Positions 3,349 to 57,343 of a stretch of 64,000 bases of DNA are shown here, in pieces. Position 1 is the stretch's first letter, and each line of letters begins with the position of its first letter. The notes under the pieces are model-generated. The model made no database searches. It saw nothing but the letters and a program-made list of their open reading frames with translations, and was not told the DNA's origin. The position numbers and the translations under genes are program-made. Origin of the DNA: Pukyongia salina (GTDB lineage Bacteria > Bacteroidota > Bacteroidia > Flavobacteriales > Flavobacteriaceae); contig NZ_CP027062.1 in NCBI RefSeq assembly GCF_002966125.1, positions 1,054,001 through 1,118,000 on the forward strand. The letters run 5' to 3'.

Positions 3349-4215
3349 CTAAGCACGTCTTTTAAAATATCCCAATAGTTTTTTTACATAGCTTTCGTCG
3401 ACCCGGCAACTAATGGCACCTGCGCCACTTTTAGTAAACGCATCCTGAAAATAATCCACTCGCTCCCTATAATAACGATGGTAATTCATTCTAACAGCTT
3501 TCGAGCCTGTGTTTACCAGTAAGTTCTCCCCGGTTTCTTCGTCCTGCATTTCTACTACCCCCAAATTTGGGATCTCTTCCTCCCTGGGATCGAACACCCG
3601 TATACCAGTTACATCATGCTTCTTAGCCACGATCTTCAAGGTGTCGCGATAATCATGTGTGATGAAATCGGATAAGACAAAGACGATCGCCTTTTTCTTC
3701 ATCACATTGGTAAGGTATTTTAATGCCTGTGCTACATCGGTCTTTTTGCTTTGAGGGCGGAATTCGATCAATTCCCTGATTATTCGGAGCACGTGCGACT
3801 TTCCTTTCTTGGGAGGTATAAACAGTTCGATCTCGTCTGAAAAAAGGATAAGCCCCGTTTTATCATTATTCTGCATAGCCGAAAAAGCAAGTGTAGCAGC
3901 TATTTCGGTTACTACTTCATTTTTAAACTGACTTTGGGTTCCGAAGAATTCTGAACCACTTACGTCTACAACAAGCATTAAGGTTAATTCGCGCTCCTCT
4001 TCGAACACTTTTATAAAAGGCTCATTGTAGCGGGCCGTAACGTTCCAATCGATATTCCTAACGTCATCTCCAAACTGGTATTGACGCACCTCGCTGAAGG
4101 TCATACCTCTTCCTTTAAAAGTACTATGGTACTCTCCCCCGAACACGTGGTCGCTCAACCTACGGGTTTTGATCTCGATCTTACGTACTTTCTTGAGAAG
4201 TTCTTTCGTATCCAT
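3349..4215 (-). CDS. DUF58 domain-containing protein
   Basis: A soluble protein of 288 residues. The early motif region with RRL and FGGEYHS, followed by the GDDVRNIDWNVTAR block (about residues 49-62), is the DUF58 signature. It is followed by a VWA-like fold with DVSGS at about 95-99 as a metal-site motif. DUF58 proteins almost always sit next to MoxR ATPases and are thought to be their substrates or adaptors. Here it lies 88 bp downstream of moxR and 7 bp upstream of the BatD-like gene. No membrane segment is visible, so it should be cytoplasmic. Confidence 0.92.
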   Translation of the reverse strand: MDTKELLKKVRKIEIKTRRLSDHVFGGEYHSTFKGRGMTFSEVRQYQFGDDVRNIDWNVTARYNEPFIKVFEEERELTLMLVVDVSGSEFFGTQSQFKNEVVTEIAATLAFSAMQNNDKTGLILFSDEIELFIPPKKGKSHVLRIIRELIEFRPQSKKTDVAQALKYLTNVMKKKAIVFVLSDFITHDYRDTLKIVAKKHDVTGIRVFDPREEEIPNLGVVEMQDEETGENLLVNTGSKAVRMNYHRYYRERVDYFQDAFTKSGAGAISCRVDESYVKKLLGYFKRRA

Positions 4216-4303
4216 TTTCAGTAAACTTTAAAAAGCTTGCAGTTGTGAATTGTTCTATTCAGCCAGGTTTGTTTCCTTAGGAATATATCGCACTGCGTAC
4301 TGA

Positions 4304-5308: not shown

Positions 5309-5478
5309 TTTAAGTAATTGTTTAACTATATTGAATGTGGTTGATTATGTTCCGCAAATTGCTTATTTATTATGGTTTATCCTGTTAATGATTGGTTAAA
5401 AATATAAGGGATAAAGCCGCTGCAGTCTTTTAATTGTTAGGCTCAATTCATTACCTTTAAAACTTCCAAAAAAAAACT

Positions 5479-6348
5479 ATGGCCGTAAAATTTTCACGCA
5501 TCATTCAGGGATGTATGGGTTGGGGAATATGGGGAGTCGATCTTTCGGAAAAAGAAATGACACATCGTATCCATCATTGTATGGAACAGGGAATTACTAG
5601 TTTTGACCATGCCGATATCTATGGCGATTATACTACGGAGGCTTCCTTCGGAAATGCCCTTAGTAACAGCAACGTAAAAAGAGAAGACATTGAAATTATA
5701 TCGAAGTGTGGAATACAGTACGTTGGGAAGACTCGTACAAATGAAATAAAACATTATCAGTACGACGCCAAATACATAGTGTGGAGTGCCGAAAAGTCCA
5801 TTTCAGATCTAAAATGCGACTATCTAGATCTATTGCTGCTACATAGGCCCAGCCCCTTGATGCAACCGGAAGAGATCGCCATAGCGGTGGAAAGATTAAC
5901 AGCCGAAGGAAAGATAAAAGCGTTCGGACTTTCAAATTTCACTCCTTCTCAAACTGCACTAGTCGCGTCCAAAAACGATATTTCTGCCAACCAGATCGAG
6001 TTTTCAATCACTGCCAACGAAGCGATGTGGAATGGCAGCCTGGATGATATGATGCTTAAGGGGATTACCCCAATGTGCTGGAGCCCCCTTGGATCTGTCT
6101 TCAGAGAAGAAACCGATCAGACAATACGAATACATAAGGAATTGGACGAATTAACTAAAAAATACAACGCTACTAAAGATCAGCTACTTCTTGCCTGGAT
6201 ACTGAAGCATCCTTCGGGCATTCATCCGGTGATAGGCACTTCAAATCCCGAAAGGATCACACTTGCCGCCGCAGCGGCAGAGATCGAACTTTCGGAAGTA
6301 GATTGGTTTAAACTACTGGTAGCAAGCAGAGGTGAAAAAGTGCCTTAG
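5479..6348 (+). CDS. Aldo/keto reductase (YdhF-like)
   Basis: A protein of 289 residues with the (beta/alpha)8 aldo/keto reductase signatures: FDHADIYGDY with the catalytic Asp and Tyr (about residues 38-47), a Lys in ISKCG, and LLLLHRP with the catalytic His. The C-terminal part has the NADPH-binding G(T)SNPERI stretch. The length and motifs suit the YdhF-type oxidoreductases, NADPH-dependent carbonyl reductases with unknown natural substrate. The gene stands alone, divergent from moxR, and its stop overlaps that of the convergent gene by 4 bp (TTAG). Confidence 0.9.
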   Translation: MAVKFSRIIQGCMGWGIWGVDLSEKEMTHRIHHCMEQGITSFDHADIYGDYTTEASFGNALSNSNVKREDIEIISKCGIQYVGKTRTNEIKHYQYDAKYIVWSAEKSISDLKCDYLDLLLLHRPSPLMQPEEIAIAVERLTAEGKIKAFGLSNFTPSQTALVASKNDISANQIEFSITANEAMWNGSLDDMMLKGITPMCWSPLGSVFREETDQTIRIHKELDELTKKYNATKDQLLLAWILKHPSGIHPVIGTSNPERITLAAAAAEIELSEVDWFKLLVASRGEKVP

Positions 6349-41644: not shown

Positions 41645-41663
41645 GGTTCTTATTACGCACAGC

Positions 41664-43562
41664 ATGAGCGACGCTTTAAAACACGAATGTGGAATTGCCA
41701 TGATACGGTTACTAAAACCGTTGGAATACTACCATAAGAAATATGGAACGGCATTTTATGGGGTGAACAAGATGTATCTCATGATGGAGAAACAGCACAA
41801 TCGCGGACAAGATGGTGCGGGCTTTGCAAGTATAAAACTGGATGTTTCTCCGGGCGAACGTTATATAAGCAGAGTGCGAAGCAACGCAGCACAGCCCATT
41901 CAGGATATATTTTCACAGATCAACGATCGCATTAACACCGAATTCAAGTTACATCCCGAATATTCCGGGGATGTGGAGGCACAGAAAAAGAACATTCCCT
42001 ATATAGGAGAGTTGTTACTGGGGCATGTACGTTACGGAACTTTTGGGATAAATAGTGTTGAAAATGTTCATCCTTTCCTGAGGCAAAATAACTGGATGCA
42101 TCGAAACCTGATCATTGCTGGTAATTTTAATATGACCAACACTACGGAGTTGTTCAACAATCTTATCAAGCTGGGAATGCATCCGAAGGAAAAGGCAGAT
42201 ACAATAACTGTGATGGAAAAAATTGGCCATTTCCTGGATGATGCGGTTAGAAAATTATATAAGAAAGCCAAAAGTGGGGGAATGAATAAAATGGAGGCCT
42301 CACCCTTTATTGCCGAAAACCTCAACATCGCAAAAATCCTGAAGAAATCTGCCCGCGATTGGGATGGTGGCTACACAATGGCCGGCATGATGGGTCATGG
42401 AGATTCTTTCGTACTTAGGGATCCGGCAGGGATCCGGCCTGCCTACTATTACCAGGATGAGGAAGTGGTTGTTATTGCTTCGGAACGGCCAGCTATTCAA
42501 ACAGTATTTAATGTTCCATTTGAAGAGATAGTAGAGATAAAACCAGGTCATGCTGTTATAGTGAAGAAGAACGGCAAGATGTCTGAATCTGAAATCCTTA
42601 GTCCGCTTGAGCGAAAATCATGTTCTTTCGAACGTATCTATTTTTCCAGGGGGAGTGACGCAGAGATCTATCAGGAGCGAAAGGAATTGGGGAGGTTAGT
42701 AATGCCGAAGGTTTTGGACGCCATTGACAGAGATACAGAGAATAGCGTTTTTTCTTTTATACCAAATACGGCAGAAACCTCGTTTTACGGGATGCTTGAT
42801 GCGGCTCAGAATGAGCTCAATAAACAGAAGAATGAGGCAATATTGAAGGAAGGAGCGAATTTAACCAACGAACGTCTCGAAGAAATACAGGCGCATAAGA
42901 TCCGTACCGAGAAGATCGCCATCAAGGATGTGAAACTCCGTACTTTCATCACCGAAGATAGCAGTAGGGACGACCTTGTCGCTCACGTATACGATGTAAC
43001 TTACGGAGTTGTACGGCCTGCAGATAATCTGGTAATTATCGATGATAGTATAGTAAGAGGTACTACTCTTAAGAAAAGTATATTGAAGATGCTGGACCGT
43101 TTAAACCCGAAACAGATCGTTGTGGTTTCATCGGCCCCTCAAATTCGTTACCCCGATTGTTATGGGATAGACATGGCCAGGCTGGAAGACTTGATTGCGT
43201 TTCAGGCTGCGCTGCAATTACATAGGGAACGAGGGACTTACGATATCGTAGAAGAGATCTACAAAAAGGCTAAGAAGGAGCTGGATAACGCTAGCGAACG
43301 GCCTGTAAATCACGTGAAGGAGTTGTATGCCCCATTTAGTGACGAGGAATTGTCAGATAAAATAGCGGAGATAATAAGTGATAATGATATCAACGCAAAG
43401 GTAAAGGTGATATTCCAGTCGGTGGAAGATCTGCATAAGGCATGTCCCAAGAATTTAGGCGACTGGTATTTTACTGGAGATTATCCTACCGAAGGAGGAA
43501 AAAAGGTTGTGAACAGGGCCTATGTTCATTTCTACGAGGGCAATCCCGAGCGTGCTTATTAA
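41664..43562 (+). CDS. purF: Long-form amidophosphoribosyltransferase (PurF-like)
   Basis: About 632 residues from the ATG at 41664; an upstream TTG would add seven residues but lies inside the terminator. The nucleophile Cys9 is in HECGIAM, so eight leader residues must be removed, as in other PurF precursors. Glutaminase motifs NRGQDGAGF and LLGHVRYGTFG and the PRPP loop VIIDDSIVRGTT confirm the family. The protein is over 100 residues longer than the usual 470-510, with extra segments in the glutaminase half and near the C-terminus, as in a Bacteroidota-specific form. It makes phosphoribosylamine, the first purine step; a second, standard PurF may exist elsewhere. Confidence 0.88.
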   Translation: MSDALKHECGIAMIRLLKPLEYYHKKYGTAFYGVNKMYLMMEKQHNRGQDGAGFASIKLDVSPGERYISRVRSNAAQPIQDIFSQINDRINTEFKLHPEYSGDVEAQKKNIPYIGELLLGHVRYGTFGINSVENVHPFLRQNNWMHRNLIIAGNFNMTNTTELFNNLIKLGMHPKEKADTITVMEKIGHFLDDAVRKLYKKAKSGGMNKMEASPFIAENLNIAKILKKSARDWDGGYTMAGMMGHGDSFVLRDPAGIRPAYYYQDEEVVVIASERPAIQTVFNVPFEEIVEIKPGHAVIVKKNGKMSESEILSPLERKSCSFERIYFSRGSDAEIYQERKELGRLVMPKVLDAIDRDTENSVFSFIPNTAETSFYGMLDAAQNELNKQKNEAILKEGANLTNERLEEIQAHKIRTEKIAIKDVKLRTFITEDSSRDDLVAHVYDVTYGVVRPADNLVIIDDSIVRGTTLKKSILKMLDRLNPKQIVVVSSAPQIRYPDCYGIDMARLEDLIAFQAALQLHRERGTYDIVEEIYKKAKKELDNASERPVNHVKELYAPFSDEELSDKIAEIISDNDINAKVKVIFQSVEDLHKACPKNLGDWYFTGDYPTEGGKKVVNRAYVHFYEGNPERAY

Positions 43563-43669
43563 ACTGTTAAAAAACCGGCTAAATTCGGCCGAATCATGCA
43601 CTTTAACGATTTTAACGAAAGCTTTATCTAAAAGTAGGAAAACTCTGATTTTCGTTTAATTATTTACTC

Positions 43670-43758
43670 TATATTTGAATCATACCATAGCATAAGTAGG
43701 TTAAGTTCATGGTAAGATTTGGGGCAAAAAAGGTAAACTCTCGTTTACCTTTTTTTTT
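43670..43758 (+). ncRNA. Candidate small RNA, copy A (promoter, hairpin, terminator)
   Basis: TATATTTG at 43670-43677 is an exact TAnnTTTG -7 box. The predicted transcript starts near 43683, where TACCAT (43683-43688) can pair with ATGGTA (43709-43714). It ends in a textbook terminator: GGTAAAC-TCTC-GTTTACC (43732-43749) and nine T. The flanks TTTGGGGC and GGCCCAAA extend the terminator stem. No ORF is carried. A nearly identical copy lies at 44924-45010, including the upstream box, which argues that the whole unit is a functional gene. It may instead be a terminator duplicated by chance with the repeat array. Confidence 0.5.
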
Positions 43759-43785
43759 GGCCCAAATCCAACGGGGTGGCGAGGA

Positions 43786-44606
43786 GCGTTAGCGACGAGC
43801 CGTTTACACTTCCCCATTACTCTCTTTACCTTTTTCCTAATGGGTGATGACAAGACGTATTCAATTCCATTTAACTATTGTTAGCTTTTCATACCTTAAG
43901 ACAATACGCAAGCGCCGAGCCGTTTACACTTCCCCTTAACTCTCTTTACTTTTTTCCTAATGGGTGAAGCCAAGATGTATTCTCTTCCCCTTAACTCTCT
44001 TTACCTTTTTCCAAATGGGTGATTACATGGCATATTCAATTACCTTTAACTCTTATTTCCTCTTTCAGCCGTGTGGCTATACGTAAGCGCCGAGCCGTTT
44101 ACACTTCCCCTTAACTCTCTTTACCTCCTTCCTAATGGATGATGACGAGACGTATTCAATTCCATTTAACTATTGTTAGCTTTTCATGCCGTATGACAAT
44201 TCGTAAGCGACGAGCCGTTTACACTTCCCCTTAACTCTCTCTACTTTTTTCCTAATGGGTGAAGCCAAGATGTATTCTCTTCCCCTTAACTCTCTTTACC
44301 TCCTTCTTAATGGATGATGACAAGTCGTATTCAATTCCATATAACTATTGTTAGCTTTTCATGCCTTAAGACAATACGCAAGCGACGAGCCGTTTACACT
44401 TCCCCTTAACTCTCTTTACTTTTTTCCTAATGGATGATGACAAGACGTATTCAATTCCATTTAACTATTGTTAGCTTTTCATGCCTAAAGACAATACGCA
44501 AGCGACGAGCCGTTTACACTTCCCCTTAACTCTCTTTACTTTTTTCCTAATGGGTGAAGACTTGGCGTATTCACTTCCCCTTAACTCACTTTACCTTAGA
44601 GGGTGG
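43786..44606. repeat. Degenerate tandem array of 55-bp and 65-bp monomers with 295-bp higher-order period
   Basis: The motif GACGAGCCGTTTACAC (or close variants) occurs at 43793, 43913, 44088, 44208, 44383 and 44503, with spacings of 120, 175, 120, 175 and 120. The spacings resolve into two monomer types: A (55 bp, containing CTTCCCCTTAACTCTCTTTAC and ending AATGGGTGAT) and B (65 bp, containing TTTAACTATTGTTAGC). The order is AB, AAB, AB, AAB, AB, AA. At several B-A joints GTAAGCG pairs with CGTTTAC over a six-base loop. The monomer lengths are not multiples of three and stops occur in all frames, so it does not code. It is not a CRISPR array: the monomers are adjacent without unique spacers. 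Confidence 0.88.
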
Positions 44607-44923
44607 AGATCGAAGACCTGCCGGGGTGAATTGCGTACTTCTATTCTAACATTTAGTCACCAATCCATTACAGGATAATATTGAGTATCTGGTTCGTTTT
44701 GTCCTGTTATACTTTAAATAATATTTCATTTGGATAAAAATGTATTATTTTGGAGATCAAAGACTGTTAAAGTCTTTTTTATTCCTACATAATATTTTGG
44801 CAAAAAGCCCGATATTTCCCTCTTTTCGGGAGTCATTGGGTAATAATTCCTATTAATATTTGCATTTTAACGAAAAAAGAGGTCCTTGGTCTAAAACTTT
44901 GGATTTTGAAAAATATAAACCTA
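44607..44923. other. Gene-free stretch between the two repeat arrays with one terminator-like hairpin
   Basis: About 320 bp of AT-rich sequence without a convincing ORF. AAGACT (44760-44765) and AGTCTT (44771-44776) form a short stem ending in a T run, a plausible weak plus-strand terminator. A second small inverted repeat with CCCGA and TCGGG lies near 44808-44831. Nothing else stands out. Confidence 0.5.
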
Positions 44924-45011
44924 TATATTTGAATCATACCATAGCATAAGTAGGTTAAGTTCATGGTAGATTTGGGGCAAAAAAAGGTAAACTCTCGTTT
45001 ACCTTTTTTTA
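44924..45011 (+). ncRNA. Candidate small RNA, copy B
   Basis: This repeats copy A almost base for base: TATATTTG at 44924-44931, TACCAT at 44937-44942 pairing with ATGGTA at 44963-44968, and terminator GGTAAAC-TCTC-GTTTACC at 44986-45003 with seven T. Relative to copy A it has one base deleted before TTTGGGGC and one extra A before the stem. TTTG elements at 44898-44901 and 44905-44908 lie 22 and 15 bp upstream of the -7 box. The likeness continues through the following GGCCCAAATCC and GGTGGCGAGGAGCGTAAGCG into the second array. Confidence 0.5.
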
Positions 45012-45045
45012 TTGGCCCAAATCCAACGGGGTGGCGAGGAGCGTA

Positions 45046-45242
45046 AGCGACGAGCCGTTTACTCTTCCCCTTAACTCTCTTTACCTTTTTCCAAATGGGT
45101 GATGACGAGCCGTTTACACTTCCCCTTAGCTCTCGTTTCCTTTTACTAATGGGTGATGACAAGCCGTTTACTCTTCCTCTGTACTCTCTTCACCTTTTCC
45201 AGCCATGTGACCAAGCGTAAGCGACGAGCCGTTTACATCTCC
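45046..45242. repeat. Second, shorter array of the same 55/65-bp monomers
   Basis: Monomers begin at 45049 (55 bp), 45104 (54 bp), 45158 (65 bp) and 45223 (partial), giving the order A, A, B, A. This is the same AAB grammar as the larger array. It follows small-RNA copy B exactly as the larger array follows copy A, so leader plus array were duplicated as a block or arose from one ancestor. It does not code. Confidence 0.85.
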
Positions 45243-45430
45243 AATATTCAGATTTATATTATTCTGGGTGAGAGGAGCATTATTTTTTAATGCCGCTCGC
45301 AATTCGCCATTACAAGAGATTTAGTTTCTATTTTTGCTTTTACCCTACGGAGGCAAGCAAAATAGTCCAGATAAACGGTTTTCTGTGCTCCCGAACTCTC
45401 ATTATCTTTATCATCTACAAAGACACGGTT

Positions 45431-45763
45431 ATGCAATTTAAGGTTAGTGATATTTTTTACAAACCCAGACTATCAACAATAATTATAATTTCGTTATTCG
45501 CAGTAGGAGTTATTCTAAATCTATCTGTTGAGCAATATAGATATTCCGAATTCAGATGGATTTATAAATACGTTAAACTAATTAGCATAATAATGACTTT
45601 CGGATCAATAGGCTGGTCTTTATTACACCCAATAATTATTTGGTCCGAGAATAAGGTTAACTGGAAGAGTTATTTGTTATGGATATTTCTAGGAATGTTA
45701 CCAATACTTTACTTCACAATTATGATCATTATATTAAACTTAACAGGGGCTATCATTGCCTAA
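45431..45763 (+). CDS. Hypothetical small membrane protein
   Basis: About 110 residues from the ATG at 45431; the frame is open back to 45290 but the extra part is not signal-like. Three hydrophobic segments are visible, at about residues 13-33, 44-64 and 80-108. I recognise no family. The coding sequence is clearly richer in A and T than the neighbouring genes and sits between repeat copies, which suggests a recent arrival or fast decay. It might not be expressed. Confidence 0.55.
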   Translation: MQFKVSDIFYKPRLSTIIIISLFAVGVILNLSVEQYRYSEFRWIYKYVKLISIIMTFGSIGWSLLHPIIIWSENKVNWKSYLLWIFLGMLPILYFTIMIIILNLTGAIIA

Positions 45764-46049
45764 AATCGGCAGTGAAGGCTATTTTCTTTCGATTTAGTTT
45801 ATTTAATATGAGTCCGCGATAAGCGACAAGCCGTTTTCATTTCCCTCCCAACTCTCGTTAAAATTAAAAGGAGCTTAGCAAACAACATTCCTTTGGAGAT
45901 GAATTTTAATTTCTTTGATCTCTTTACCTTTACAATAGAATTTTAGAATAACAAGAGTGATAAACTGTCTTTAATTTATCATTAAATACGCTTTACTAGT
46001 CTTAGAATATGCTTCACCATAAAAGATTCCTTTCAGTAATATATAAGAT
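45764..46049. other. Intergenic region with a relic repeat monomer
   Basis: About 286 bp. At 45822-45862 AAGCGACAAGCCGTTTTC and TCCCAACTCTCGTT form a worn monomer of the 55-bp type, so the repeat family once reached this far. The rest is AT-rich, with no ORF or terminator I can support. Confidence 0.6.
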
Positions 46050-47151: not shown

Positions 47152-47760
47152 TTACTTGTTCTGGGCGTAGTTTTTTGCAACAGCGTCCCAATTGATCACA
47201 TTGAAAAAGGCCGCAACATAGTCCGGTCTTCTGTTTTGATAATTTAAGTAATAGGCATGCTCCCATACATCAAGTCCCAAAATTGGAGTTCCTCCACATG
47301 TTACGCCCGGCATTAGCGGGTTATCCTGATTTGGGGTGGAACACACCTCCACTTTTCCTCCTGGATGAACACATAGCCAGGCCCATCCTGAACCAAATTG
47401 GGTTTTGGCAGCTTTTGAAAATGTTTCCTTAAAGGCATCGAAACTTCCGTATGCATCATTGATAGCTTCGGCTAGTTCGCCACTGGGCTGCCCTCCTCCG
47501 TTAGGTGACATTACTTCCCAGAATAGCCTGTGGTTATAGTAACCCCCACCATTATTTCTAACTGCGCCATTGCTCATATCCAGATTGGTAAGTATTTCTT
47601 CAATAGATTTACCTTCTAAGTCGGTGCCCTCAATAGCGGCATTTAAGTTATTTGTGTATCCTGCATGGTGTTTCCCATGATGAATCTCCATAGTGCGTGC
47701 GTCGATATGAGGTTCAAGCGCATCCGTAGCATATGGAAGAGTTGGTAATTGGAAAGACAT
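47152..47760 (-). CDS. sodA: Fe/Mn superoxide dismutase
   Basis: About 202 residues from the ATG at 47760 (an upstream ATG adds 11 residues and is less typical). Metal ligands are visible: His in [17 protein letters not shown], His in NHRLFWEVM, and the [19 protein letters not shown] block with Asp and His. The cytosolic form has no signal peptide. It converts superoxide to oxygen and hydrogen peroxide. Whether it holds Fe or Mn cannot be settled by eye, so sodA is only the customary symbol. Confidence 0.94.
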
Positions 47761-47918
47761 AATATGTAGTTTTAGATTATTAATAAATTGCATCTCAAAG
47801 GTAGTTATTCTAGTTTTTTTAAACTGTTAGAGAATTAATAAGATTTTTATTCCCTTATAGATTATAATTATTGTATGCTGAGTGCCGAGGTTTCTTTAAT
47901 TTAGTAAAAAATTAGCCT

Positions 47919-52416: not shown

Positions 52417-53820
52417 ATGAAACATCTTAACACTTTTTTAGTTGCTGCCTTACTGCTTTTAGGCGTTGGGGTAACAAACGCACAGGACGAAAATAATCCT
52501 TGGGCAATCGAAGTTGGTGTAAACGCAGTTGATGTTTACCCAGTTGGTCTTGATGATGAAGGAAGATTTCCTAACATGATTGGAGATCTCGCAATCAAGG
52601 GCGATTTATTTGACGAATATTTCAATGCAAATGACCACTGGAATATCCTTCCATCTATCTCTCGCGTTTCTGTGGGTAGATATATTGGTAGTGGATTCAC
52701 ATTTACTGCTGCCGGATCTGTAAACAAGATCACTAAACTAGGTAATGTAAAAATTAACGATGTTACTTACTATTCTGCTGATGGTGAGATCGAATATAGC
52801 TTAAGAGACGTTATAGGAGGTCCAGGCGGATGGTTCGATCCAACCTTAGGAGTTGGTGGTGGATACACTTGGGTTGACGATGTAGGATTTGGAACGGCTA
52901 ACGCGCTAGCGGGTGTTCGTTTTTGGGTAGGTGAGAACCTGGCCCTTAGTTTCCAATCTGCATATAAGCACTCGTTTGAGGATGATTACGGAATCATTCA
53001 CTTCCAGCACTCAGTTGGTGTTATGTTCAAATTCGGTGGAAAAGATACAGATGGTGACGGAATCTACGATCAAGACGATGAATGTCCAGAGACTCCAGGT
53101 CTTCCGGAATTCAACGGATGTCCTGATACAGACGGTGACGGAATCGAAGACAGAAAAGATGCTTGTCCTAACACTCCAGGTCTTGCAGAATTCAACGGAT
53201 GTCCTGATACAGATGGTGATGGTATTCCTGATCCTCAGGATGCTTGTCCTACTGTAGCCGGAATTGCTTCTCTAAACGGTTGTCCAGATGCTGATGGTGA
53301 TGGAATCACCGATGCTGAAGATGCTTGTCCTAACGAAGCTGGTCCTGCTGCTAACAATGGATGCCCATGGCCAGATCGTGATGGTGACGGTGTACTAGAC
53401 AAAGACGATCAGTGTCCAGATGTTCCTGGAACTGTTGCAAACAACGGTTGTCCTGAAGTAACTGTAGAGATCATCAAGCAATTGAATGATTACTCTAAAA
53501 CTATCTTGTTCGACACTGGTAAAGCTACTATTCGTCAAGAGTCTTATGCAGTACTTCAAAGCATAGTAGACATCATGAAAGAATATCCAAATACATATTT
53601 CGTAATTGAAGGTCACACAGACAGTGTTGGTAGCGATAAGTCTAACCAAACTCTTTCTGACAACAGAGCGAAATCTGTTAGAGATTATCTTGTAACTATC
53701 GGAATGGACGGATCCAGATTATCCTCTGTAGGATATGGTGAATCCAGACCAATTGCTACAAACAATACCAAAGCTGGTAGACAACAAAACAGACGTGTGG
53801 AAATTTCTCTTAAGAAATAA
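52417..53820 (+). CDS. OmpA family outer-membrane protein with TSP3 repeats
   Basis: A protein of 467 residues. A signal peptide ends near TNAQ. The beta-barrel (about 24-205) is followed by five calcium-binding thrombospondin type 3 repeats (about 209-347) with DTDGDGI, DACP and NGCPD units, then the OmpA C-terminal peptidoglycan-binding domain (about 360-467) with [13 protein letters not shown] and [10 protein letters not shown]. It links the outer membrane to the cell wall. The TSP3 repeat DNA is itself a short tandem repeat (about 53047-53457). The gene has its own strong promoter and terminator. Confidence 0.96.
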
Positions 53821-56634: not shown

Positions 56635-56708
56635 GGGGCATTAGCTCAGCTGGCTAGAGCGTTTGGCTGGCAGCCAAAAGGTCATCGGTTCGACTCCGAT
56701 ATGCTCCA
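56635..56708 (+). tRNA. tRNA-Ala (anticodon GGC)
   Basis: The cloverleaf closes well: acceptor GGGGCAT with ATGCTCC (one G-U), D-arm GCTC, anticodon stem TTTGG / CCAAA with loop CTGGCAG giving anticodon GGC, and T-arm ATCGG / CCGAT with loop TTCGACT. The 3' CCA is not encoded. The T-arm and acceptor 3' strand are repeated downstream. Confidence 0.97.
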
Positions 56709-57204
56709 CATCAAGCAGAAAACCAGGACGAAAGTTCTGGTTTTTTTATTCTGAAGAAATTCAAGCTGGCTTGCTATTTCGAAAGAATGAAAAAGGCCAA
56801 GGCATTGGAACAATGACCGGTTTTCTATTTGCAGTAGTGGCCCTGTGAGGACGGGTAACAATCACTCCGATATGCTCCACATCAAGCAGAAAACCAGGAC
56901 GAAAGTTCTGGTTTTTTTATTCTGAAGAAATTCAAGCTGGCTTGCTATTTCGAAAGAATGAAAAAGGCCAAGGCATTGGAACAATGACCGGTTTTCTATT
57001 TGCAGTAGTGGCCCTGTGAGGACGGGTAACAATCACTCCGATATGCTCCACATCAAGCAGAAAACCAGGACGAAAGTTCTGGTTTTTTTATTCTGAAGAA
57101 ATTCAAGCTGGCTTGCTATTTCGAAAGAATAAAAAAGATCAGGGCATTGGAACAATGACCGGTTTTCTATTTGCAGTAGTGGATCTGTGAGGACGGGTAA
57201 AATC
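56693..57204 (+). repeat. Three tandem 171-bp units beginning in the tRNA-Ala 3' end
   Basis: ACTCCGATATGCTCCACATC begins at 56693, 56864 and 57035, exactly 171 bp apart. Each unit repeats the end of the tRNA, then the terminator hairpin AACCAGGAC-GAAA-GTTCTGGTT with a T run (56721-56747, 56892-56918, 57063-57089), then the same further sequence. Copies 1 and 2 look the same throughout; copy 3 differs by several bases in the middle (near 57130) and near 57183. The extra copies lack the 5' tRNA half, so they do not encode tRNAs. Confidence 0.95.
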
Positions 57205-57343
57205 AATAAGACAATTCGGTAAAAATTTCAATATGTATATTTAATATATATATACGGTATATGTATAGTAGATATGCATTTGTTGGCTAAAGATGTGTGT
57301 TTCAGTACGTTTGGACTTGTTAAACCCCAAAATCAAACGCAAA

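Follow-up and report, generated by a model that had tools for sequence, protein, structure and literature searches.

The purF-linked locus

In the window (the whole 64-kb stretch of DNA analysed here), two copies of an unannotated sRNA-like gene were identified between a purF-like gene and a convergent superoxide dismutase gene (Table 1), each with a TATATTTG box, a near-invariant 5' hairpin and a covarying terminator, and each followed by a tail of tandem repeats. The purF-like gene matched NCBIfam TIGR01134 with 129.7 bits, under the cut-off of 350, and PDB PurF chains with a best E-value of 6.9e-24; most related loci had an ORF similar to the superoxide dismutase gene as their neighbour. 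A block of 128 bp (43639-43766), which contains the TATATTTG box, CCATAGCATAAGTAGGTTAAGTTCATGG, AGATTTGGGGC and a hairpin placed between an A-run and a T-run, recurred at 44893-45020 with 81% identity, and these were the only two strong copies of the block in the whole genome. Copy 1 scored 96.6 bits (E 1.5e-15) against the covariance model of the sRNA (R1), and 43660-43830 folded as RNA at z = -3.7. The TATATTTG box, seen by eye before both copies, is presumably a promoter -7-like box of the kind used by the Bacteroidota sigma factor, and would be the candidate for a canonical sigma-ABfr promoter as in FopS RNAs; similar boxes preceded many sRNA copies in other loci. The GGCCCAAATC arm turned the terminator into a long palindrome, which was a trait of the tail-bearing clade described below.

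Table 1. Features of the purF-linked sRNA locus, in window positions
Feature	Position	Strand	Basis
purF-like gene (amidophosphoribosyltransferase-like), conserved upstream neighbour of the sRNA cluster	41652..43562	+	
TATATTTG, putative promoter -7-like box of sRNA copy 1	43670..43677	+	sequence
sRNA copy 1: hairpin CCAT...ATGG, AGATTTGGGGC, terminator GGTAAAC-TCTC-GTTTACC-T9	43679..43759	+	model R1, covariation
GGCCCAAATC, extra 3' arm complementary to GATTTGGGGC, copy 1	43759..43768	+	
Conserved element GGGGTGGCGA-[hairpin]-GAGCCGTTT, copy 1	43773..43805	+	
Tail 1, higher-order array AB AAB AB AAB AB A(A)	43787..44597	+	TRF, anchors, monomer cutting
TATATTTG, putative promoter -7-like box of sRNA copy 2	44924..44931	+	sequence
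sRNA copy 2	44933..45013	+	model R1 89.9 bits, E 3.2e-14
GGCCCAAATC, palindrome-completing arm of copy 2	45014..45023	+	sequence
Conserved element, copy 2	45028..45060	+	
Tail 2, short array A-A-B	45062..45242	+	TRF and anchors
Small ORF of 110 aa (157 aa if started at the first ATG)	45431..45763	+	among decayed tail units
Superoxide dismutase gene, conserved far-side neighbour, convergent	47152..47793	-	Pfam Sod_Fe_C/N

The parent unit and a short array recurred behind copy 2, so that a second parent with A, A and B monomers (45028-45242) was found 1.25 kb downstream of the first; TRF reported 45049-45198 with a period of 54, and the anchors were at 45052, 45107, 45161 and 45226. The small ORF behind tail 2 had no match in Pfam or NCBIfam and a close relative in G003, the nearest relative of the window on the PurF tree. 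A lone decayed tail unit was observed beyond this ORF, at 45816-45870 (anchor 45828).

Architecture of the array

The initial annotation had described an anchor recurring at spacings of 120, 175, 120, 175 and 120 bp, and exactly these distances separated the six exact copies of GAGCCGTTTACACTTCC (43797, 43917, 44092, 44212, 44387 and 44507). Tandem Repeats Finder, the check proposed there, was run and recovered periods of 55, 120, 175 and 295 bp, the last with 2.7 copies and 88% matches. Cutting from 43807 into A (55 bp) and B (65 bp) monomers gave ABAABABAABABA and a last partial A, thus the order AB AAB AB AAB AB AA was also confirmed. The A consensus, at a threshold of at least 36 of 55 bases, was matched in the 64-kb window at eight array positions and at 45062 only, with no match on the other strand. 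The array had been taken to begin at 43786, which is not where the feature starts, since its parent, the sRNA terminator with the element, lies upstream at 43720-43806.

Duplication of a 295-bp unit after the monomers diverged, as had been suggested, was supported in part. At a lag of 295, the A pair 43927/44222 was 98% identical and the B pair 43862/44157 was 91% identical, but the B pair 44037/44332 was just 72% identical, and the monomer at 44332 was 95-97% identical to those at 43862 and 44452. Such uneven identities between phase-matched monomers indicate a mosaic and not a single clean 295-bp duplication. The reported stem GTAAGCG/CGTTTAC needs one G-U pair, and on reading GTAAGCG was found at two of the six joints. 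A link to the nearby terminator was real, but the monomers were not terminator-like folds; instead they contained the terminator loop and 3' arm.

A coding repeat was rejected, since the periods break the frame (none of 55, 65, 175 and 295 is divisible by 3). Bacterial minisatellites or VNTR loci are intergenic tandem repeats with period and copy number variable between relatives, and the array resembled them in its head-to-tail noncoding copies and in the shift of copy number or period among close relatives, here between species. It differed from them in that the parent unit could be identified (sRNA terminator and element) and the end motifs were kept across genera. An assembly error in repeat number or order could be imagined from the fragmented assembly of G003, in which the contigs C164 and C47 end in tails, but is extremely unlikely, as the genome of the window is one 3.18-Mb contig and independent assemblies of other species hold similar arrays. 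Elsewhere in the window, an 81-bp tandem repeat (53044-53219, GATACAGATGGTGACGGAATCG..., calcium-binding-like by eye) was located inside the ORF 52417-53820.

A near-universal predicted sRNA family in Flavobacteriaceae

The conserved parts of the locus are the sRNA and the short GGGGTGGCGA...GAGCCGTTT element, neither of which was part of the initial finding, and both look of more interest than the repeat pattern. In an alignment of 31 diverse sRNA copies (157 copies thinned at a 90% similarity cut), 25 columns were invariant, and the core was near-invariant over about 50 nt. Changes on both sides were observed at eight of nine pairs of the terminator helix, and the whole structure had 51 both-side cells against 21.6 in shuffled alignments (reached by 0/500 shuffles), the 5' hairpin being too invariant for a covariation test. 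A conserved unit with a promoter box and a covarying terminator, outside coding sequence, was thus found, which on sequence grounds points to an sRNA gene. The sRNA is predicted to be transcribed and to act in regulation, and its conservation, promoter box and terminator suggest that it is very probably a functional regulator. A coding reading was rejected, since the GGTAAGATTT/GGTAGATTT indel between the sRNA copies alters any peptide.

The covariance model had a match in 241 of 299 Flavobacteriaceae genomes (about 80%) and in 194 of 236 genera, and 22 of the 28 genomes from the genus of G033 were positive. Among 247 genomes drawn from the class, seven were positive, five of them Flavobacteriaceae and two weak outsiders. 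R1 matches outside the family were obtained in G115 and G322 (38-39 bits); the former was rejected as a bearer on reading, the core being absent, while the latter had a similar stretch (TTTAGTAGGTTAAG ... AGATTTGG) and no clear terminator. In purF loci taken from named genomes, the core lay within 3.5 kb downstream in 67 of 80, with one copy in 25 loci, two in 20, three in 12, four in 8 and five in 2. A 961-bp query that included the array matched 28 of 60 sampled genomes by BLAST, the window's own among them, mostly at two or more places.

Rfam gave no threshold-level match over the window except one tRNA, and a literature search including sequence strings, for which most subscription papers were beyond reach, showed no description of the sRNA or the element among the papers listed. 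The valuable finding is the host of the array, a near-universal flavobacterial tandem sRNA below every Rfam threshold, together with its clade-specific 3' element. Few sRNAs have been characterised in Flavobacteriaceae, a family to which this one would add a near-universal test case.

Antisense targets of the loop CTTAACCTACTTA (at most one mismatch) were found at six places against 15 for the reversed control, giving no enrichment; two of the six were the sRNA copies, and one (1251303) was located at a weak sRNA-like match. Two further stretches of the same genome were similar to the sRNA. One, a third and diverged relative (C1:833970-834060, 36.1 bits, E 0.0017), carried CATAAGTAGGTT and ATTTGGGGC around a different middle, with AAATTTGGGGC and a strong terminator; another (C1:1251261-1251328, minus strand, 25 bits) had an exact CATAAGTAGGTTAAGTT and TTTGGG with a poor terminator.

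Comparison with known RNA systems

NsiR1 of Nostoc is reportedly one sRNA gene in tandem copies, and resembles the present sRNA in this respect, but it belongs to another phylum and has another sequence. FopS sRNAs of Bacteroides (RF04319; PMC11697453) are short, occur in paralogous copies in Bacteroidota and have an unpaired 5' part and a terminator, all of which is shared by the present sRNA; in an alignment, both also held TTCATGGTA..AGATTT. Members of FopS are described there as intergenic, antisense and 3'-UTR-derived, whereas the present sRNA is placed in tandem behind purF; FopS RNAs are further characterised by binding of RbpB and by repression of susC mRNAs. Membership in FopS was rejected, as the score of 20.3 bits lies below the gathering score of 56 and is at noise level, another place of the genome scoring 20.5, and over 13 genomes the FopS model had 0/13 above the cut-off. 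The best sub-threshold matches among these 13 were observed in G037, of another family of the order (36.6 and 33.8 bits, at C144:3765-3832 and C163:3651-3722). The Rfp RNAs of Flavobacterium psychrophilum (PMC9723704) are independent flavobacterial transcripts, as is predicted for the present sRNA, and some of them are conserved past the species; purF is not mentioned in the main text of that paper.

Composition of the tails and the boundary element

The tails were composed of the 3' half of their own sRNA terminator and GGGGTGGCGA-[variable]-GAGCCGTTT, in tandem repeats whose period, between 55 and 236 bp, was particular to the species. Each unit started in the terminator, with the loop and the 3' arm, and continued, decayed forms apart, through CCCAAATC, the element and a pyrimidine tract as far as the next loop. 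An exact search for GGTGGCGAG-N10-40-CGAGCCGT in 397 family genomes gave 13 positives, against one match for the reversed control. The sRNA core was found close upstream of the element in each of the loci of G598, G632, G503, G355 and G540, and in that of G680 cores were present, the closer of them some 80 bases upstream of the element. The pattern matches of G032 and G650 were counted as chance, as their 3-kb loci contained no core. When the collected loci were searched fuzzily, 77 units were obtained, among whose interiors of at least 9 bases 68 were distinct, with lengths of mostly 33-41 or 10-12; the element ends formed part of the query, so that their conservation is partly by construction. 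A CRISPR-like array was rejected, because in other genomes interiors repeated unchanged within arrays (L148, L164) or diverged gradually (L150). In several tails (L121, L127, L043, L164), another repeat of the GCCGCT..CGCGGGTATCTCCACCAAATGTCC...GACATTCG type was observed just before GGTGGCGAG.

GGGGTGGCGAG, with up to two changes, was found within 60 nt of the terminator in 0/136 non-tail sRNA copies and, in shuffled tails, at 0.0004 per copy; the non-tail value is an independent frequency and the 49/57 of the tail set is not, that set having been picked for having units. With one locus taken per genome, 42 of 64 clade copies had both palindrome arm and element, two the arm only, five the element only and 15 neither (p 1e-8), thus arm and element, apart in seven copies, behave as one module.

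The eleven elements with 12-base interiors from the genus of the window could form a helix GGC-GA-[stem]-GA-GCC, in which three of eight pairs had both-side changes, a number reached in 0/500 shuffles. Against this helix, the pair 7-28 was broken in three of the eleven rows, and in five rows G-A/A-G mismatches replaced two standard pairs. For the long interiors, hairpin position 1 was slightly above the shuffled expectation (40/55 against 36.9), positions 2-7 were near it and position 8 was above it (32/55 against 22.3), and a hairpin there is unproven. Because its ends are conserved and compensatory changes occur, the boundary element, which is conserved across genera, may act as an RNA or single-stranded DNA structure.

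The same observations bear on whether the array itself could be functional, with read-through tail RNA pairing with the sRNA as a decoy, or with the tail serving as an insulator or a back-up terminator ahead of the next copy. Its units bear the terminator 3' arm and, in many species, CCCCAAATC, which is complementary to the invariant AGATTTGGGG; across several genera the element is conserved at its ends but not in its interior, units in many tails of the genus of G033 retain ...CCCAAATC, and the paired changes of the eleven short elements agree with such a role. But the CCCAAAT arm was lost from the monomers of the window, four two-copy clade genomes (L130, L136, L138 and L140) had no element behind either copy, although one copy of L140 still had the palindrome arm, and long interiors folded barely better than shuffles (mean z -0.6 on the plus and -0.2 on the minus strand), so we regard a functional array as unlikely.

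Distribution and history of the tails

In a PurF tree with 116 rows, one 40-row clade with support 100/100 contained all but one of the tail rows (33 of 34), and the tail label changed seven times against 29.7 in shuffles; these are counts of rows and not of genomes, with L041/L132, L046/L131, L145/L192, L148/L191, L150/L190 and L140/L189 taken as same-genome pairs. L146, with a short purF, and L187, L135 and L141, in whose stretches no purF was found, were omitted from the tree, and the unit of L091 was dropped as a false regex match. Seven rows of the clade had no units, of which L042 also had no sRNA core. The outlier was G503, which had a tail and yet grouped with Salinimicrobium on a long branch, and a single vertical origin does not explain its tail.

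The two-tier arrangement of the window is real, but its order was not conserved: in G003, tail 1 consisted of 6.1 A-type 55-bp monomers and no B, thus the AB-AAB order is either younger than that split or was lost there. In the other relatives, periods were 66-236 bp or no TRF array was found, and across species period and copy number were 55x6.1, 67x10.6, 81x2.2, 202x2.9, 107x2.4, 113x2.2, 130x2.2 and 236x3.8, so that nearly every species had a tail period of its own. The two-tier repeat is a rapidly turning-over noncoding tail of the sRNA gene. The initial annotation hinted at a structural role of the pattern; with no conservation of the higher-order arrangement, the pattern as such gives no indication of one, while absence of conservation alone cannot show absence of function. 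The AB-AAB order and copy number are most likely neutral.

Probable origin of the array from the terminator

The array is best read as the downstream tail of a conserved tandem sRNA gene, seeded by duplication of the terminator and with a functionless order, to which we give a probability of roughly 0.6. The monomers carried the terminator loop and 3' arm, ACTCTCGTTTACCTTTTT being aligned with ACTCTC-TTTACCTTTTT at 17 of 18 bases with one deleted. In local alignment, each of the 13 monomers scored above at least 493 of 500 dinucleotide shuffles, and eight of them above all 500. Descent of the monomers by duplication from the terminator is most likely on this evidence.

In the comparison over genomes (one locus per genome, 47 tails), the best match of the own sRNA terminator was 0.81 against 0.65 in the tails of other genomes (Wilcoxon p 1.7e-9), and its match was better in the own tail than in the tail of the sister copy in 28 cases, worse in five and equal in three. 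Such a preference would follow if tails were re-made time and again from their own terminator or homogenised with it. In the window, the ungapped match was weak, with 0.73 for tail 1 and 0.80 for tail 2 against 0.69 elsewhere, and gapped alignment revealed one deleted loop base.

In the proposed sequence of events, the terminator became a long palindrome in one flavobacterial clade (AGATTTGGGGC-A6-GGTAAAC-loop-GTTTACC-T9-GGCCCAAATC), followed by the GGGGTGGCGA-[variable]-GAGCCGTTT element and a pyrimidine tract. As the homology shows, DNA from the palindrome centre (loop, 3' arm and element) was duplicated repeatedly in tandem, separately for each sRNA copy. The break point at the centre of a long palindrome suggests that slippage or break repair there could drive the duplication. 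In the species of the window, some copies decayed to the 55-bp form without the hairpin and the GGCCCAAAT arm, and others to a 65-bp form that retained the GAGCCGTTT side; blocks of AB and AAB may later have been exchanged unequally, giving the two-tier order. The many species act as replicates in which the tails show how tandem arrays can start from a terminator palindrome, and the tails make the effect of the boundary element on the sRNA testable.

The tail region collects small accessory genes, as in G005 (locus L126), where a ParD/ParE-like pair (3730-4279 of the locus) separated tail 1 from sRNA copy 2 and tail 2 was followed by a DUF4265 gene (5421-5912 of the locus). These genes, the orphan ORF in the window and a START-domain gene behind tail 2 in G002 would fit a second origin, in which a small GGGGTGGCGA...GAGCCGTTT-bounded element or gene cassettes insert repeatedly at the 3' end of the sRNA and thereby duplicate the terminator half, which serves as their target or attachment site. 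The minimal form, [terminator half]-[element]-[terminator half], has the shape of such a scar, the tail of G503 outside the clade bears its own terminator variant, and the window also holds a tRNA-Ala followed by three repeats that each contain its 3' end. We consider insertion quite unlikely, because no recombinase was recognised among the few locus proteins scanned, and related species share diverged interiors, as descent predicts. A phage or plasmid origin was rejected, since 43640-45260 had no match in phages or plasmids and the exact boundary pattern was absent from the viral contigs searched.

More specifically, and very doubtfully, a minimal element of GGGGTGGCGA-[33-41 nt hypervariable or 10-12 nt hairpin]-GAGCCGTTT with the terminator half might settle only at the 3' end of this purF-linked sRNA, copy the local terminator, multiply in tandem and be able to reach other lineages, as in G503. 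If so, it would be an unrecognised repeat that targets an RNA gene and gives the sRNA a species-specific 3' tail.

For the preferred origin by terminator duplication, the tRNA-Ala(GGC) of the window (56635-56709) offers a comparison. It was followed by three 171-bp tandem repeats of 97% identity (whole span 56635-57205), the first beginning inside the 3' end of the tRNA and each bearing that end and a terminator-like hairpin. The 64 kb thus contain two cases of tandem duplication from inside the 3' end of an RNA gene, which speaks more for a general process than for a special role of the array.
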